Source: an uncultured Flavobacteriaceae bacterium (lineage in GTDB: Bacteria > Bacteroidota > Bacteroidia > Flavobacteriales > Flavobacteriaceae). From it: a stretch of DNA of 38,695 nt. The stretch lies in NCBI GenBank assembly GCA_905479625.1, contig CAJQNF010000073.1:1-38695 (forward strand). Direction: 5' to 3'. Positions 3,501-8,834 of the stretch are shown here, in pieces; the first letter of the stretch is position 1, and every line of letters starts with the position of its first letter. Position numbers and translations under genes: made by a program. The notes below the pieces were generated by a model. The model did not search any database. It was not told the origin of the DNA and saw only the letters and a program-made list of their open reading frames with translations.

Positions 3501-3522
3501 TGTTTAACTTATTAATAATTTT

Positions 3523-3532
3523 GTTAGACAAA
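3523..3532 (+). promoter_or_regulatory. candidate operator GTTAGACAAA at the fas1 promoter
   Basis: GTTAGACAAA overlaps the -7 element of the fas1 promoter (read on the minus strand as TTTGTCTAAC directly after TATA). The identical 10-mer occurs upstream of crtI at 4784-4793, and a one-base variant lies in the regulator's own promoter. A second core, TGTCCAA on the plus strand (TTGGACA on minus), sits at 3554-3560 over the -33 element. Binding by the CarH-like protein is inference. Confidence 0.45.
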
Positions 3533-3560
3533 TATAAAATAAAAAATACATACTGTCCAA
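3529..3560 (-). promoter_or_regulatory. promoter of fas1
   Basis: Minus strand: TTG (3560-3558), 21-base spacer, then TATATTTG (3536-3529). This fits the Bacteroidetes sigma factor consensus TTG-N17/23-TANNTTTG. It lies 28 bases upstream of the fas1 ATG. Confidence 0.6.
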
Positions 3561-3631
3561 GTAAAAAGATAAAAAAGTGAACAAAAATTAATTTTTTAAC
3601 TTTTTGTTAGGAGTCTCAGAAAAAACTTTTA

Positions 3632-3645
3632 TATATTTGTCCAAC
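3632..3645 (+). promoter_or_regulatory. promoter -7 element of the CarH-like gene with overlapping candidate operator
   Basis: TATATTTG at 3632-3639 fits TANNTTTG, 28 bases before the regulator ATG. The nearest TTG (3604-3606) is 25 bases upstream, longer than usual, so the -33 is weak and the promoter may depend on an activator. TTTGTCCAAC (3636-3645) overlaps it; its complement GTTGGACAAA differs in one base from the sites at fas1 and crtI, which suggests autoregulation. Confidence 0.45.
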
Positions 3646-3667
3646 AAAATGATTTAAAAAATTAAAC

Positions 3668-4567
3668 ATGATTTCATATTCAGTAGCTCAGGTTGAGGCG
3701 TTAACAGGTATCAAAGCACATACTTTAAGGATATGGGAGCGTCGATATGATTTTCTTGAACCAGCTCGTACGCCTACCAATATTCGCTATTATTCGGATG
3801 AACAATTAAAGAAGCTTTTGAATTTTGGAATTTTGGTGAGGAATGGATATCGAGTTTCTAAGCTTAATAAGATGCCAAGTGAGCAGGTGTTCGAGGAGGT
3901 TGCAAAAGTTCTGGCAAATCCAGGTTCTCAGGCAAGTGACGAGATGAAGGGGTTGACCCTGAGTATGTTGGAGATGAGTGAGGAGGATTTTGATGATATT
4001 TTCGAGAGGCAGGTGATTAGGAAAGGTTTTTTCAAAACCATTACTGAAACCATTTATCCTTTTTTACAATATGTAGGAGTGTTATGGACAAGTAATAAGG
4101 CGATGATCGCGCAAGAGCATTTTATTTCAAATTTGATCAGACAAAAAATAATTGCTGCTATTGAGCGATTGTCAATTCCGCAAAAGGATGCACCTGCTAT
4201 CGTATTCTTTCTTTTAGAAGGGGAAGAGCATGAAATTGGTTTGCTCCTGGCTAGTTTTGTGGCCAAGGAAATGGGGTGGAATATTTACTACCTGGGGTTG
4301 GGTGTTCCCATACCGAATATAAAGAAGGTAATTGAAATGACAGAACCACAACTTTTGATGACGATGTTTGTAACGCCAAAAGTGAAAAAATTGAAGAGTC
4401 AAATAGATGAGATCCTTGAGGGTAATGACGTGTCTTTCATGCTTTCCGGTAGTACTGAGAATTTAGATGCGGTTGATGATTCTGAACGAATTCTTAAAGT
4501 GAAATCTCCTGCAGATTTTCAGACTCAATTAGCGGATATTCATAATGATTTTCAGACTTCGATTTGA
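3668..4567 (+). CDS. CarH-like MerR-family regulator with cobalamin-binding domain
   Basis: 299 residues. N-terminal MerR winged helix (residues 3-70: YSVAQVEALTGIKAHTLRIWERRY, then RYYSDEQLKKL), a helical cap at about 90-165 and a Rossmann-like B12-binding domain at about 175-290. The cap has W140 followed by nine residues and E150-H151, the W-x9-EH signature of CarH/CarA that covers the upper face of adenosylcobalamin. The B12 domain has E186-x-H188-x-x-G191, the DxHxxG motif with Glu for Asp, so the lower axial histidine is kept. Known CarH proteins repress carotenoid genes in the dark and release DNA when light breaks the Co-C bond. The gene sits directly upstream of a crt operon and shares a motif with its promoter, so control of crtI and fas1 is the natural inference. 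Repressor or activator role, and light response itself, are not shown by sequence. Confidence 0.88.
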   Translation: MISYSVAQVEALTGIKAHTLRIWERRYDFLEPARTPTNIRYYSDEQLKKLLNFGILVRNGYRVSKLNKMPSEQVFEEVAKVLANPGSQASDEMKGLTLSMLEMSEEDFDDIFERQVIRKGFFKTITETIYPFLQYVGVLWTSNKAMIAQEHFISNLIRQKIIAAIERLSIPQKDAPAIVFFLLEGEEHEIGLLLASFVAKEMGWNIYYLGLGVPIPNIKKVIEMTEPQLLMTMFVTPKVKKLKSQIDEILEGNDVSFMLSGSTENLDAVDDSERILKVKSPADFQTQLADIHNDFQTSI

Positions 4568-4733
4568 TTTGATGGTTGATTTTGTTATTGATTGATATTT
4601 TTTTTAATTTTTTAAGATTATTTTTATATTTTAGAAATCTCTTCTATAGAGCGTCCTCCTCTAATTGGATGACAAAATTTTAACATTTTTATTGATATTT
4701 TGTTAAAGAAAAACAACATAATTGTTGGTGTTC

Positions 4734-4793
4734 GTTAGACTAGCTTATACTTAGACATAAATGTTTAAATAAAAAGTAAAAAAGTTAGACAAA
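4734..4793 (+). promoter_or_regulatory. three direct TTAGAC repeats upstream of crtI (candidate operators)
   Basis: GTTAGACTAG (4734-4743), CTTAGACATA (4750-4759) and GTTAGACAAA (4784-4793), all in the same orientation. The last ends four bases before the crtI -33 TTG and is identical to the site in the fas1 promoter. Start-to-start spacings are 16 and 34 bases, unlike the contiguous 11-bp direct repeats described for Thermus CarH, so any binding mode would differ. Confidence 0.5.
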
Positions 4794-4797
4794 AATG

Positions 4798-4827
4798 TTG
4801 ATTTTTAGGTAAAATCATTTAGTTTTG
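4798..4827 (+). promoter_or_regulatory. promoter of the crt operon
   Basis: TTG (4798-4800), 19-base spacer, TAGTTTTG (4820-4827): full match to the Bacteroidetes consensus. The crtI ATG begins only 7 bases after the -7 element and has no ribosome-binding site, so the transcript is probably leaderless or has a leader of a few bases. Confidence 0.65.
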
Positions 4828-4834
4828 CGTTTAT

Positions 4835-6298
4835 ATGAATAAAAAAGTGAGTATTATTGGTTCTGGATTTGCCTCTATTTCGGCTGCATGTTATATGGCC
4901 AAGAGCGGATATGAGGTTAATGTTTATGAAAAGAATGAACAATTGGGTGGAAGAGCCAGGCAATATAAACAGGATGGTTTTAAATTCGATATGGGCCCTA
5001 CCTGGTATTGGATGCCGGATGTTTTTGAACGTTTTTTTGCTGATTTCGGTAAAAAACCGTCAGATTATTATCAACTAGAGCGATTAGGGCCGGCCTACAG
5101 GGTGTATTTTGGAGAGCAGGATTTTATGGATATTTCTGATGATTTAGACGAGATCAAAGAAACTTTTGAGAAAATAGAGTCAGGGGCAGCGAATGCGTTG
5201 ACCAGTTTTTTGGAAAAGGCGGCAAAAAATTATGAGGTAGCGATAAAAGATTTGGTATATAAACCGGGTTTGAGTCCGTTTGAGTTAGTATCAAAAGATA
5301 CCATACTAGAGGTGCCTCAATTTATAAGTACCATACATGATGTAGCTAAAAAGAAGTTTAAAAGCCCCAGGTTAAGGCAGATCATTGAATTTCCGGTTTT
5401 ATTTTTAGGTGCTAAGCCTTCAATGACTCCTGCGTTTTATAGTTTTATGAATTATGCAGATCTGGGATTGGGAACGTGGTACCCTTCAGGCGGAATGAAG
5501 TCGGTGGTTGATGGAATGATTCGGTTAGCTGAAGAAATGGGTGTTACCTTTCATACGAACGCTCCAGTTTCCAAAATAACAACAGGAAAAGATAAAAGAG
5601 TTACTAGTATGACAATTAATGAGGTAGATGAGCCTGTTGATCTGGTCATTTCAGGAGCTGATTATGCCCATACTGAAAGTTTGTTGATGGAACAAGACAG
5701 AGTGTATAGTAAAGCTTATTGGGATAAAAAGGTGATGGCTCCTTCTTCTTTACTCTTCTATGTGGGATTAGACAAGAAAGTGGAGCGATTATTGCATCAT
5801 ACTTTATTCTTTGATGTGTCATTTGACGATCATGCCAAAGCTATTTATGACGATCCAAGTTGGCCTGAAAAGCCCTTGTTTTACGTAAGTTTTCCAAGCA
5901 TGACTGACAGTTCTGTTGCTCCTGAGGGAAAAGAGGCTGCGATTTTTTTAATACCTTTAGCTCCGGATCTTGAAGATACGGCGGTATTACGGGAAAAATA
6001 CTTTGATATCATCATCAAGAGACTGGAGAAATTAACCAAGCAGGAAATAAGATCATCCATTTTGTTCAAAGAGTCCTATTGTGTTCAGGATTTTAAGGAT
6101 GATTACAATTCATTCAAAGGCAATGCCTATGGAATGGCAAATACATTGATGCAAACTGCTTTTTTAAGACCAAAACTAAAAAGTAAAAAAATAAAAAACT
6201 TATATTTCACAGGGCAATTAACTGTTCCTGGACCTGGTGTTCCTCCTGCTCTGATCTCAGGTAAACTAGTTTCAGATCTATTAACTAAAGACAACTAA
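4835..6298 (+). CDS. crtI: phytoene desaturase CrtI
   Basis: 487 residues, normal length for bacterial CrtI. The N-terminal dinucleotide-binding fold has GSGFAS (residues 10-15), an acidic end of beta2 (VYEKNEQLGGRA), then the family signature FDMGPTWYWMPDVFERFF. The C-terminal FAD signature YFTGQLTVPGPGVPPALISG is intact. It desaturates phytoene to lycopene using FAD and a quinone or oxygen acceptor and is membrane-associated. The third glycine of the usual GxGxxG is serine or alanine here (GSGFASIS), a mild deviation. First gene of the crt operon; crtB starts one base after its stop. CrtN- or CrtO-type activity is less likely given the lycopene cyclase and hydroxylase downstream. Confidence 0.95.
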   Translation: MNKKVSIIGSGFASISAACYMAKSGYEVNVYEKNEQLGGRARQYKQDGFKFDMGPTWYWMPDVFERFFADFGKKPSDYYQLERLGPAYRVYFGEQDFMDISDDLDEIKETFEKIESGAANALTSFLEKAAKNYEVAIKDLVYKPGLSPFELVSKDTILEVPQFISTIHDVAKKKFKSPRLRQIIEFPVLFLGAKPSMTPAFYSFMNYADLGLGTWYPSGGMKSVVDGMIRLAEEMGVTFHTNAPVSKITTGKDKRVTSMTINEVDEPVDLVISGADYAHTESLLMEQDRVYSKAYWDKKVMAPSSLLFYVGLDKKVERLLHHTLFFDVSFDDHAKAIYDDPSWPEKPLFYVSFPSMTDSSVAPEGKEAAIFLIPLAPDLEDTAVLREKYFDIIIKRLEKLTKQEIRSSILFKESYCVQDFKDDYNSFKGNAYGMANTLMQTAFLRPKLKSKKIKNLYFTGQLTVPGPGVPPALISGKLVSDLLTKDN

Positions 6299-6299
6299 C

Positions 6300-7139
6300 A
6301 TGAAAGAATTATTTGACAAGCTATCATATCAATGCTCGCACAAGGTGACAAGTATGTATAGCACTTCCTTTTCCCTTGCGGTTAAAATGTTATCCCCTAA
6401 AATTCAAAAAGACATCTATGCTATTTATGGTTTCGTAAGGTTTGCAGATGAGATTGTTGACACTTTTCACGATTATGAGAAGGAAGTCTTACTTGATGAG
6501 TTTGAAAGGGATTTGTATAAAGCTATTGATCGAGGAATTAGCTTAAATCCTATCCTTAACTCATTCCAGGAAGTTGTCAATAAGCATCAGATAGATGCCG
6601 CATTGATCGATCATTTTATGAAAAGTATGCGAGCTGACTTGTATAAAAGTGAATATCAAAGTATAGAGGAATATGAAGATTATATATATGGATCAGCCGA
6701 TGTAGTGGGGTTAATGTGTCTGAAAGTTTTCGTTCAAGGCGATCAAAAACGATTTGATGAACTCAAAGAACCGGCTATGAAATTAGGTAGCGCATTTCAA
6801 AAAGTGAATTTTCTGCGTGATTTGAAGGATGATACTGAACATCTTCATCGATCCTATTTTCCTCATATTCAAGGAGGAGTAATTGATGGTGTGGTAAAGG
6901 AGCAGATCATTGAAGAAATTGAGAAAGATTTTCAAGAAGCGTATGTAGGAATTCTTCAGTTGCCAATTGAGGCTAAATTTGGAGTGTACACTGCTTTTAT
7001 TTATTACAGAAAATTATTAAGAAAATTAACCGTAACAAAAGCTAGTGAAATAAAGGAGAAAAGAATTCGAATCAGTAATCCTATGAAAATGTTTTTGCTT
7101 ACCAAATCGTTTGTGAATTACAAGTTGAATTTACTTTGA
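6300..7139 (+). CDS. crtB: phytoene synthase CrtB
   Basis: 279 residues, squalene/phytoene synthase family. It condenses two GGPP into phytoene. Both Asp-rich Mg-diphosphate motifs are present: DEIVD at residues 50-54 and DLKDD at 174-178, the latter within FQKVNFLRDLKDD. The substrate-pocket motif YGSADVVGLMCL (about 130-141) is also typical. Start ATG at 6300 is one base after the crtI stop, and its TGA overlaps the TTG start of the next gene, so translation is probably coupled. The GGPP synthase gene crtE is absent from this operon and must lie elsewhere. Confidence 0.96.
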   Translation: MKELFDKLSYQCSHKVTSMYSTSFSLAVKMLSPKIQKDIYAIYGFVRFADEIVDTFHDYEKEVLLDEFERDLYKAIDRGISLNPILNSFQEVVNKHQIDAALIDHFMKSMRADLYKSEYQSIEEYEDYIYGSADVVGLMCLKVFVQGDQKRFDELKEPAMKLGSAFQKVNFLRDLKDDTEHLHRSYFPHIQGGVIDGVVKEQIIEEIEKDFQEAYVGILQLPIEAKFGVYTAFIYYRKLLRKLTVTKASEIKEKRIRISNPMKMFLLTKSFVNYKLNLL

Positions 7140-7663
7140 TAAAACAAAGGGCCATATTCGCTTTATTGTTTGTAACTTTGATGTCTCAGGCCCAGGAAAG
7201 CGACCTGTTAATAAAGATGAGATCAGAATTTCAGGAAATCAACAGCGAAGCTGATATAAAAAAAATATTAGACTTTAACCTTGAAAATATTGACATTAAT
7301 GAGCAACAATTGATCGAAGCTTATCAGGCGACAGCGACTTGTATGCTTGCCGAATATGATCTTTCTCCTATGTCGAAATTGAAATATTTCAATGAGGGAA
7401 AAAAAAAGCTTGAGGAACTGATCACGATAAAAAAAGGTGTTGAAAATGTGTATTTGAGGCTGTTGTTGCAGTTAAACGTGCCTCGGATTCTTAGTTATTA
7501 TAAAAATATTGAGGAGGATGTGGCCTATCTGGAATCATCATTAGCAACGGCACCAATTGATGTGTCTTATAAGTATGCCATGATCAAAAACCTGATCAGT
7601 GTGGCTAAGAAAAATGAATTAAAAGAAGTTTTATTGCAAATTAATGTAGTAGAAGAGGGTTGA
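7136..7663 (+). CDS. unknown secreted helical protein in the crt operon
   Basis: 175 residues; I do not recognise a family. The best start is TTG at 7136, overlapping the crtB stop by four bases, because it gives a clean Sec signal peptide (IKQRAIFALLFVTLMSQAQ, cleavage near AQA/Q-E). A later ATG (residue 16) would cut it off. The mature part, about 155 residues, is rich in Leu, Glu, Lys and Ile and looks all-helical, with segments such as DIKKILDFNLENIDINEQQLI and LKYFNEGKKKLEELI that could be TPR-like or other helical hairpins. One Cys (about residue 63). No catalytic motif is apparent. A periplasmic or exported protein between the phytoene synthase and hydroxylase genes suggests a role in pigment placement or envelope adaptation, but that is only inference from position. 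Confidence 0.8.
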   Translation: MIKQRAIFALLFVTLMSQAQESDLLIKMRSEFQEINSEADIKKILDFNLENIDINEQQLIEAYQATATCMLAEYDLSPMSKLKYFNEGKKKLEELITIKKGVENVYLRLLLQLNVPRILSYYKNIEEDVAYLESSLATAPIDVSYKYAMIKNLISVAKKNELKEVLLQINVVEEG

Positions 7664-7679
7664 TAAAAAATTAAGGAAA

Positions 7680-8129
7680 ATGATACTGTTTATTACAATT
7701 TTGATTACCACATTTTTAATGGAAGGAGTTGCCTGGGGAATGCATAAATACATAATGCATGGGCCATTTTGGAATCTTCATGAAGATCATCATGTAAGAG
7801 ATAACCACGATTCGTTTTTGGAACGTAACGATTCATTTTTCGTCTTTTTTGCAATCATTTCGATCACAGCTTTTTCATTGTGGTCGATCTTTGGCTGGCA
7901 AATTAGTTTGGGTATAGGAATTGGGGTTTTTATTTATGGCGTCATTTACTTTGTCATTCATGATCTATTTATTCACCAGCGTATCAAAATCTGGAGAAAA
8001 ACTAAAAACCCATATCTTTTGGCTTTGAGAAGGGCTCATAAAATTCATCATAAACATCTTGGGAAACATGAGGGAGAGTGTTTTGGTATGTTATGGGTGC
8101 CAATGAAGTATTACAAAGGGCAATACTAA
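7680..8129 (+). CDS. crtZ: beta-carotene hydroxylase CrtZ
   Basis: 149 residues, membrane-bound fatty-acid-hydroxylase superfamily. All histidine clusters for the di-iron site are present: H22-x4-H27 (HKYIMH), H34-x2-H37-H38 (HEDHH), H94-x4-H99 (HDLFIH) and H120-x2-H123-H124 (HKIHH). Hydrophobic helices flank them (residues 1-18, 52-90). CrtZ hydroxylates the 3 and 3' carbons of the beta-ionone rings, giving beta-cryptoxanthin and zeaxanthin. It lies 16 bases after the unknown secreted gene, and its TAA directly touches the ATG of the cyclase gene. No ketolase gene (crtW) is seen, so zeaxanthin is the expected end product of this operon. Confidence 0.95.
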   Translation: MILFITILITTFLMEGVAWGMHKYIMHGPFWNLHEDHHVRDNHDSFLERNDSFFVFFAIISITAFSLWSIFGWQISLGIGIGVFIYGVIYFVIHDLFIHQRIKIWRKTKNPYLLALRRAHKIHHKHLGKHEGECFGMLWVPMKYYKGQY

Positions 8130-8834
8130 ATGATGTCGCTTTACCTTTGGCTAGATCTTCTTTCGATTTCAGTTCCTTTTCTGGTTTCCTTTCACCCCAG
8201 AATCAAGTTATATAAGAGCTGGAGGGCATTGTTCCTTGCGCTATTGATTACATTGGTCCCTTTTATTATTTGGGATGTATATTTTACGGTACAAGGCTAC
8301 TGGGGTTTTAATGAGACGTATCTTTCAGGAATTTACCTACTGCATCTACCCATTGAAGAATGGTTGTTTTTTATCTGTATTCCTTATGCCTGTGTTTTTA
8401 CGCACCTGTCAATTTTAGAAATAAATCCTAATTTATCTTTGTCTGAAAAGGTCAGTAACCGAATTACAATACTGTTATTTACCATCTTCGTTTTGGTATT
8501 GCTTTTTAATACTGATAAGGCCTATACAGCTGTTGATATGATTTTTGCGATCATTACGCTGGCATTGGTCAAAAAATTTAATCCTAAATTGCTGCAAAGT
8601 TTTTATCTCACTTTCTTGTTTATGCTGATTCCGTTTTTTATCGTAAACGGTATACTTACAGGGACTGGCATAGAAGGTAATGTTGTATGGTATAATAACG
8701 AGGAGAATTTGGGGATAAGACTGGGTACGATTCCAATAGAAGATAGCGCCTATGCCTTTTCTTTGATTTTACTGAATTTATGGTTGTTTTTTAAGTTTGA
8801 TTCCGGCAACACATCAAAAGCTAGGTCAAAGTAA
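8130..8834 (+). CDS. crtYcd: lycopene cyclase, fused CrtYc-CrtYd type
   Basis: 234 residues, strongly hydrophobic with about seven membrane segments. Two internally related halves each carry the short PxE(E/D) motif of heterodimeric cyclases: LPIEEWLFF (P74-I-E76-E77) and IPIEDSAYAF (P202-I-E204-D205). This is the actinobacterial/fungal/archaeal CrtYc plus CrtYd fold in one chain, not the FAD-containing CrtY. It cyclises the ends of lycopene to beta-carotene, the substrate of the preceding CrtZ. The second of the two leading ATG codons (8133) could also be the start. Last gene of the crt operon; the next gene is convergent, 19 bases away. Confidence 0.92.
   Translation: MMSLYLWLDLLSISVPFLVSFHPRIKLYKSWRALFLALLITLVPFIIWDVYFTVQGYWGFNETYLSGIYLLHLPIEEWLFFICIPYACVFTHLSILEINPNLSLSEKVSNRITILLFTIFVLVLLFNTDKAYTAVDMIFAIITLALVKKFNPKLLQSFYLTFLFMLIPFFIVNGILTGTGIEGNVVWYNNEENLGIRLGTIPIEDSAYAFSLILLNLWLFFKFDSGNTSKARSK

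Follow-up and report, generated by a model that had tools for sequence, protein, structure and literature searches.

Comparison with known light-responsive regulators

The closest described systems are the CarH regulators of Thermus thermophilus and Bacillus megaterium, whose operators are built from 11-bp direct repeats of the form nnnnTnnACAn, three or four in tandem (PMC9304148). The operators of the Myxococcales proteins CarH and CarA are also tandem direct repeats, in which degenerate repeats are tolerated and which reach -35 or -10; for CarA, an earlier proposal of an inverted repeat was later revised to direct repeats (PMC9304148). In Pseudomonas, the class II LitR proteins PplR1 and PmlR2 are MerR-type light regulators whose sites are each made of two spaced half-sites; one such site is at -35 and another lies between the transcription start and the start codon. 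These sites have the form TGTACA-N12-TGTACA, and light sensing by PmlR2 depends on a partner LOV protein (PMC9758184). Carotenoid genes of Chryseobacterium lacus are light-induced without a recognised regulator (PMC7064467).

We analyzed a 38.7-kb stretch of DNA from an uncultured Flavobacteriaceae bacterium (the window) that carries a CarH-like gene, carH. The locus resembles those of T. thermophilus and B. megaterium in the domain layout of the regulator, its B12 and light-response residues, the neighbouring carotenoid genes and the half-site TnnACA, and Thermus CarH is its closest solved structure. It shares the half-site and the promoter-reaching position with the Myxococcales operators, and the use of two spaced half-sites with the Pseudomonas ones. 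Unlike in the CarH and CarA systems, however, the half-sites are opposed, with 16 or 17 bases between them. This inverted repeat, or dyad, is very probably a real, conserved operator, judging from sequence comparisons. We consider it likely that it is the operator of the neighbouring B12-dependent, light-released CarH-like repressor, with crtI, carH, FAS1 and rhodopsin genes in the regulon. A wider proposal, which we hold less firmly but still judge somewhat more probable than its opposite, is that throughout the Flavobacteriaceae a B12 photoreceptor uses head-to-head N16 half-sites rather than direct repeats and, in the dark, acts on rhodopsin and retinal synthesis as a direct repressor.

Among the matches listed in the open-licence literature, a scope that leaves most subscription papers outside, neither an N16 dyad nor a rhodopsin under CarH is described, and those to the dyad sequence strings are unrelated papers only. 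The dyad supplies a named regulator together with a defined site and a list of targets. It suggests a second use of the CarH half-site, in another geometry, and this matters for understanding how the DNA-binding domains are placed by the oligomer. If the proposal is true, rhodopsin phototrophy would be coupled to light through B12.

The regulator and its neighbourhood

The relevant features of the window are as follows, with promoter elements to be compared with the flavobacterial consensus TTG / TAnnTTTG quoted in PMC3587595.

1686-3500, minus strand: fas1, encoding a FAS1 (fasciclin) repeat protein; divergent predicted target
3501-3530: dyad D1, TGTTTAA-N16-TTAGACA, an exact match to TGTYYAA-N16-TTRRACA, stretching from the -7 of fas1 to its start codon
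3523-3532, plus strand: core GTTAGACAAA
3529-3536, minus strand: fas1 -7, TATATTTG, with the -33 TTG at 3560-3558
3554-3583: dyad D2, TGTCCAA-N16-GTGAACA, with one mismatch, over the fas1 -33 and 53 bp from D1
3560-3554, minus strand: TTGGACA
3632-3639, plus strand: carH -7, TATATTTG
3638-3668: dyad D3, TGTCCAA-N17-TTAAACA, running from the -7 of carH to its ATG
3645-3636, minus strand: core GTTGGACAAA
3668-4567, plus strand: CarH-like regulator with MerR helix-turn-helix and B12-binding domains
4735-4740, plus strand: lone TTAGAC core, for which a search found no dyad partner
4751-4757, plus strand: extra half-site TTAGACA (TTAGAC core at 4751-4756), facing the left arm of D4 over 4 bases
4762-4791: dyad D4, TGTTTAA-N16-TTAGACA, immediately 5' of the crtI -33
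4784-4793, plus strand: second copy of core GTTAGACAAA
4798-4827, plus strand: crtI promoter, with -33 TTG (4798-4800), 19 bp, and -7 TAGTTTTG (4820-4827)
4835-8834, plus strand: predicted-target carotenoid genes (crtI, phytoene synthase, an ORF without Pfam match, a fatty-acid-hydroxylase family ORF and lycopene cyclase)

The regulator is a MerR protein of 299 residues that carries a B12-binding domain; its counterpart in Lutimonas halocynthiae is 79% identical. Its N-terminal MerR helix-turn-helix matches PF13411 (6e-14) and the helical part of the B12-binding domain matches PF02607 (4.4e-7), the Rossmann part having no Pfam match at 0.001. By sequence, the nearest solved structures are Thermus CarH/LitR 3whp and 5c8d (E about 5e-21), and the predicted model (mean pLDDT 85) best matches 5c8e, which is CarH on DNA (E 1.2e-15), and has a TM of 0.81 (by target) against the CarH B12 domain 8c35. 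The motif Wx9EH and the lower-ligand motif ExHxxG are both present, as is the complete set of GxxW, EH, GxxH and GxxxP, signature elements termed light-responsive in PMC11796333. Residues W140, E150, H151, E186, H188, G210 and P214 are invariant in 15 aligned sequences (set A1). The best NCBIfam match is the CarH equivalog NF052513, at 103.6 bits versus a cut-off of 400 that is not reached; we therefore call the protein CarH-like rather than a CarH equivalog, and count the result against our interpretation.

We define class A as genomes with a relative of the regulator at E 1e-76 or better (at least 44% identity), which applies to 22 of 299 family genomes, including the one studied here. Most other family genomes form class B, with a relative about 35% identical, and both B12 motifs are found in all eight of the class-B proteins checked. 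A motif scan did not find ExHxxG in three class-A regulators (L043, L049 and L054); the L043 match contains a stop, and L049 and L054 are without the tested dyad form upstream. A divergent fas1 adjoins the regulator gene at 29 of the 30 class-A loci. Based on their spacing, the carotenoid genes would form one operon; the ORF between the phytoene synthase and hydroxylase-family genes (7136-7663) has no Pfam match at 0.001.

The repeated unit is an inverted repeat

An earlier note on this DNA pointed to six TTRGAC cores around the regulator gene. Its coordinates all proved correct when the letters were checked again, and we confirm that cores overlap the fas1 -7 and the carH -7 and that the one at 4784-4793 ends four bases before the crtI -33. 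The cluster is also beyond chance: six TTRGAC occur in the 434 intergenic bases from fas1 to crtI (regulator gene excluded), versus a mean of 0.29 by shuffling, and 0 of 2000 shuffles of the two intergenic stretches reach six. Over the whole window there is no enrichment of TTRGACA (13 versus 12.2 expected) or of GTTRGACAAA with one mismatch (9 versus 7.3 expected). The note had proposed a genome-wide count of intergenic versus coding copies. Run with GTTRGACAAA on the 2.67-Mb genome, it gave 15 matches versus 14 + 14 (28) for the reversed control; three of the 15, all in the window, lie outside ORFs and the other 12 fall within mechanical ORFs of 80 codons or more. The motif is thus rare overall and concentrated at the window. 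Two of the 12 ORF-internal matches (L012 and L013) are probably one site at overlapping contig ends, as their identical flanks, at the end of contig C109 and the start of C125, suggest an assembly overlap.

What the note took as the unit, a single TTRGACA, is wrong. The element is a long inverted repeat, TGTYYAA-N16-TTRRACA, with N17 in some copies, and four of the six cores are each paired with an overlooked mirror-image arm at a distance of 16 or 17 bases. The four best dyads of the window all lie within the two intergenic stretches, at the fas1, carH and crtI promoters. The cores at 4735 and 4751 are not arms of a TGTYYAA-N16/17-TTRRACA dyad, so that two of the six are unexplained by it, which counts against our interpretation.

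A scan of gaps from 6 to 36 with TGTCTAA-Nk-TTRGACA in the 22 class-A genomes found 68 places, of which 23 have k=16 and 5 have k=17, while other gaps average 1.38 with a maximum of 4. At free spacing, the arm pair is not commoner than its reversed control (53 versus 49 forward matches); this counts against our interpretation, and the evidence is therefore the peak at 16-17, not the number. With TTTAAC arms in class B, gap 16 accounts for 10/13, 7/16, 5/14 and 5/13 places in four fully listed genomes, and for 0/10 and 0/2 places in two genomes without the regulator. In the sequence preceding 22 more distant class-A regulator genes, TGTYNAA...TTNRACA has gap 16 in 19 cases and gap 17 in 13, whereas shuffles of these regions never give more than two pairs at any gap; in a Dyadobacter-type set of eight loci, gap 16 occurs seven times. 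In 29 regions 5' of class-A carH genes, TGTnnA-TnnACA forms 33 + 35 pairs at the two expected spacings, versus about 0.5 when shuffled. Locus L035, apparently the same as L017, is omitted from the 22- and 29-region counts and kept among the 30 class-A loci.

Conservation at carH loci

The earlier note had suggested comparing related genomes, and the motif is indeed kept in them, in the form of the dyad. It occurs upstream of carH in 23 of 30 class-A loci and in 7/7 Dyadobacter loci, the latter being nearly identical and thus not independent. Among class-B loci it lies between carH and crtI in six of eight, and upstream of carH itself in only one of eight, a result that counts against our interpretation.

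Individual window dyads recur in near relatives. The position of D1 has an N17 form in L016 and L020, and that of D3 in L018, L019 and L036. D2 has a counterpart at the equal position in L016-L020, mismatched in some. D4 is N17 in L017; elsewhere it is N16 with the left arm AGTTTAA (L016, L018, L019 and L036) or AGTTTAT (L020). Same-strand arms 52-53 bp apart, as in D1 and D2, are common in class A. In eight loci (L037, L038, L041, L043, L047 and L050-L052), TTAGAC directly precedes the carH start codon, giving TTAGACATG, so the half-site overlaps the start codon.

The arm letters vary among clades: TTAGACA makes up 45 of the 62 arms matching the pattern in distant class A, TTAAACA makes up 36 of 38 in two class-B genomes, and the Lutimonas-like clade is mixed. 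Shared target families thus retain a dyad whose variable letters differ between regulator clades, which suggests that these letters are read by the regulator.

Genome-wide dyads and predicted targets

TGTYYAA-N16-TTRRACA occurs seven times in the genome containing the window (G000), always in intergenic sequence, and 7 and 10 times in two members of the genus; the reversed pattern is absent from all three. The 22 class-A genomes together have 74 dyads versus 14 reversed (summed by hand; mean counts agree). Two of them, G014 and G240, have no strict N16 dyad, which counts against our interpretation. In five fully read genomes (G000, G025, G253, G034 and G044), 40 of 43 dyads are intergenic, meaning that no mechanical ORF of 70 codons or more covers them. 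All 24 of the 74 class-A dyads that belong to this genus were read (two are in the window). The other 50 comprise 20 fetched as AT-rich between the arms, 11 upstream of known carH loci and 19 that were left out, which may hold more coding or chance matches. The seven dyads of the genome have these predicted targets:

Two dyads, in the window: fas1/carH and crtI
One dyad: a second FAS1 gene
One dyad (L085, G000:C51:63781-63810): between divergent genes for a rhodopsin (Bac_rhodopsin) and a beta-carotene dioxygenase (retinal synthesis)
One dyad: a glutathione peroxidase gene
One dyad: a DUF2452 gene, 248 bp off
One dyad: a gene for a 149-residue protein without Pfam match

We take the rhodopsin to be of the proteorhodopsin type. 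The idea of a small local regulon put forward in the earlier note therefore does not hold, as the dyad is genome-wide, recurs in relatives and includes rhodopsin among its predicted targets. In other genomes the same families reappear, together with a TetR_C_23 protein, ABC1 kinase, DUF2911, PTPS and a GLPGLI protein, as well as CrtW-like and mevalonate-kinase-like proteins that are both below NCBIfam cut-offs. A symmetrised profile of 75 dyads, TTTTGTTTAACTTTTTT..AAAAAAGTTAAACAAAA, and the tallies of targets (FAS1, TetR and others) are drawn partly from chosen dyads, AT-rich between the arms.

Some additional observations concern single families. In G034, a dyad likewise lies between divergent rhodopsin and beta-carotene dioxygenase genes, as identified by blastp clustering (L131). 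A TetR-type protein with a TetR_C_23 domain (L098 tested) is, together with FAS1, the commonest predicted target in the fetched set (L092, L098, L105, L108, L115, L117, L119, L120, L125 and L137). A family of about 140-150 residues is found behind the dyad in five genomes (L087:619-1065, L089, L099, L126 and L136); its L087 member has no Pfam or NCBIfam match, and the dyad there ends at the predicted start codon. At L118 the dyad is upstream of an ABC1 kinase gene.

Co-occurrence of dyad and regulator

We compared dyad counts with regulator matches in 299 family genomes from 236 genera. At least one dyad is present in 238 of the 241 regulator-bearing genomes: 20 of the 22 in class A (mean 3.36, control 0.64) and 218 of the 219 with another regulator match at 1e-6 or better (mean 4.58, control 0.67). 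The 17 genomes that have no or a weak match and are at least 95% complete are at background (5 with a dyad; mean 0.53, control 0.59), and one of them has three dyads, which counts against our interpretation. In the 41 less complete genomes of this kind, 16 have a dyad (mean 0.85, control 0.54), and five have at least three, again counting against it.

The association also holds at particular genes. Of 26 regulator-bearing genomes, 20 have a strict dyad at most about 110 bp upstream of the rhodopsin gene (23 if the pattern is loosened), versus 2 of 14 genomes without a clear regulator (4 looser), those two being 81% and 73% complete. For crtI, the figures are 13 of 30 with the regulator (16 loose) versus 0 of 24 without it (0 loose). 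The strict dyad is thus absent from 6/26 rhodopsin and 17/30 crtI genes in regulator-bearing genomes, which counts against our interpretation. Both contrasts have Fisher p of about 2e-4, uncorrected for kinship; because the genomes are related, these values overstate independence. The sets with the regulator are the 30 best-scoring loci each, not random draws. The sets without a clear regulator are 14 of the 15 genomes with a rhodopsin match (G292, a fragment, omitted) and 24 of the 25 with a crtI match better than 1e-90 (G149 omitted). Of the 30 best-scoring rhodopsin loci (L140-L169) as a whole, including four in genomes that lack a clear regulator, 22 are preceded by a strict dyad, versus 0/30 for the reversed sequence.

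Proposed mechanism and alternative explanations

We propose that TTTTGTYYAAC-N14-GTTRRACAAAA (TGTYYAA-N16/17-TTRRACA) is an operator whose TTRGACA cores would be half-sites for the CarH-like MerR protein; the arms TTRRACA fit the CarH half-site TnnACA. In the dark, the adenosylcobalamin form would occupy two opposed half-sites whose starts are 23-24 bp apart, and bound dyads, overlapping or abutting the -33 or -7, would block transcription. Light would then break the cobalt-carbon bond and release the regulator. Binding in the dark and release by light are what we infer from the behaviour of the family (PMC9304148, PMC11796333), and repression from the position of the dyads. Members of the regulon in this genome and its relatives would be crtI, the carH gene, genes for FAS1 proteins, and the divergent pair encoding rhodopsin and beta-carotene dioxygenase; light would thus turn on pigment and rhodopsin jointly. 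The note's own attribution of the motif to the CarH-like protein stands to the extent that the motif probably belongs to the regulator's circuit, is concentrated at promoters and is conserved, and fails in its choice of unit.

Among 57 gene starts at most 90 bp from a dyad, TAnnTTTR occurs mainly at offsets -6 (13), 15 (15) and 35-36 (14) from the dyad start, where the first is favoured by two letters that the element shares with the arm. These offsets are about two helical turns apart. The usual position of a dyad is therefore over or next to the -33, the -7 or the start region, where a repressor would be expected to sit, and CarH operators likewise cover or abut promoter elements (PMC9304148).

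The alternative that survives best is that the regulator binds the dyad but senses a signal other than light, e.g., B12 supply or redox state. We consider this unlikely, since GxxW, EH, GxxH and GxxxP, light-responsive according to PMC11796333, are all present, and since rhodopsin and carotenoid genes are among the predicted targets. However, glutathione peroxidase and other predicted targets would also fit oxidative stress, and the flavobacterium Dokdonia PRO95 is reported to express its proteorhodopsin constitutively (PMC3587595), which counts against control by light.

Another transcription factor that is co-inherited with the CarH-like protein might bind the dyad instead. The candidate would be the recurrent TetR-type target, whose gene has the dyad in front in 10 fetched loci, as in self-regulated genes. 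Such a reader seems to us decidedly improbable: the class-A dyad is found at carH and the class-B one between carH and crtI, the arms fit the CarH half-site, and their letters vary with the CarH clade. In addition, G059 has the TetR protein with no CarH match and no dyad, while G000 has seven dyads and no TetR match, although with G000 84% complete this comparison amounts to one genome each way.

Direct TnnACA pairs 11 bp apart number 0 in the 29 upstream regions, versus 1.1 expected, and the inverted pair peaks at one spacing across 22 whole genomes. We thus give very little credence to the explanation that the CarH-like protein uses tandem 11-bp direct repeats in the Thermus style and that the inverted partner is incidental, even though the arm is TnnACA and the distal and proximal crtI half-sites are 34 bp apart, near three repeats. 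The earlier note, which suggested a possibly new binding mode, is supported in that the layout is unlike that of Thermus; what is not new is the core, which is the known CarH half-site.

That the motif is merely an extended -7 element is scarcely credible: two window cores do share TTTG with the -7, and offsets -6 and 15 set an arm against it in 13 and 15 cases, but D4, like many other dyads, is not at the -7, near-complete genomes that lack the regulator have the dyad at background frequency, and the second arm and the spacing are left unexplained.

Returning to the proposed CarH-like repressor, it is plausible that its oligomer offers two opposed DNA-binding domains by means of flexible linkers. 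Two other literature leads were considered. MliR is a MerR-like protein without an effector domain and has no bearing on the dyad (PMC9478572), and the excerpt of PMC9723704 makes no mention of MerR or TTTAAC.

Additional elements upstream of crtI

The crtI region was also considered as a degenerate four-repeat CarH operator, and this candidate was dropped because the middle element is the reversed arm of D4, at N16. A TnnACA half-site at about the distance of the 4751 half-site from D4 recurs, by eye, in L016-L020. Near relatives, L017 among them, have a short palindrome 5' of crtI that is made up of the distal half-site plus D4's left arm, e.g., TTAAACAAATTTGTTTAA in L017.
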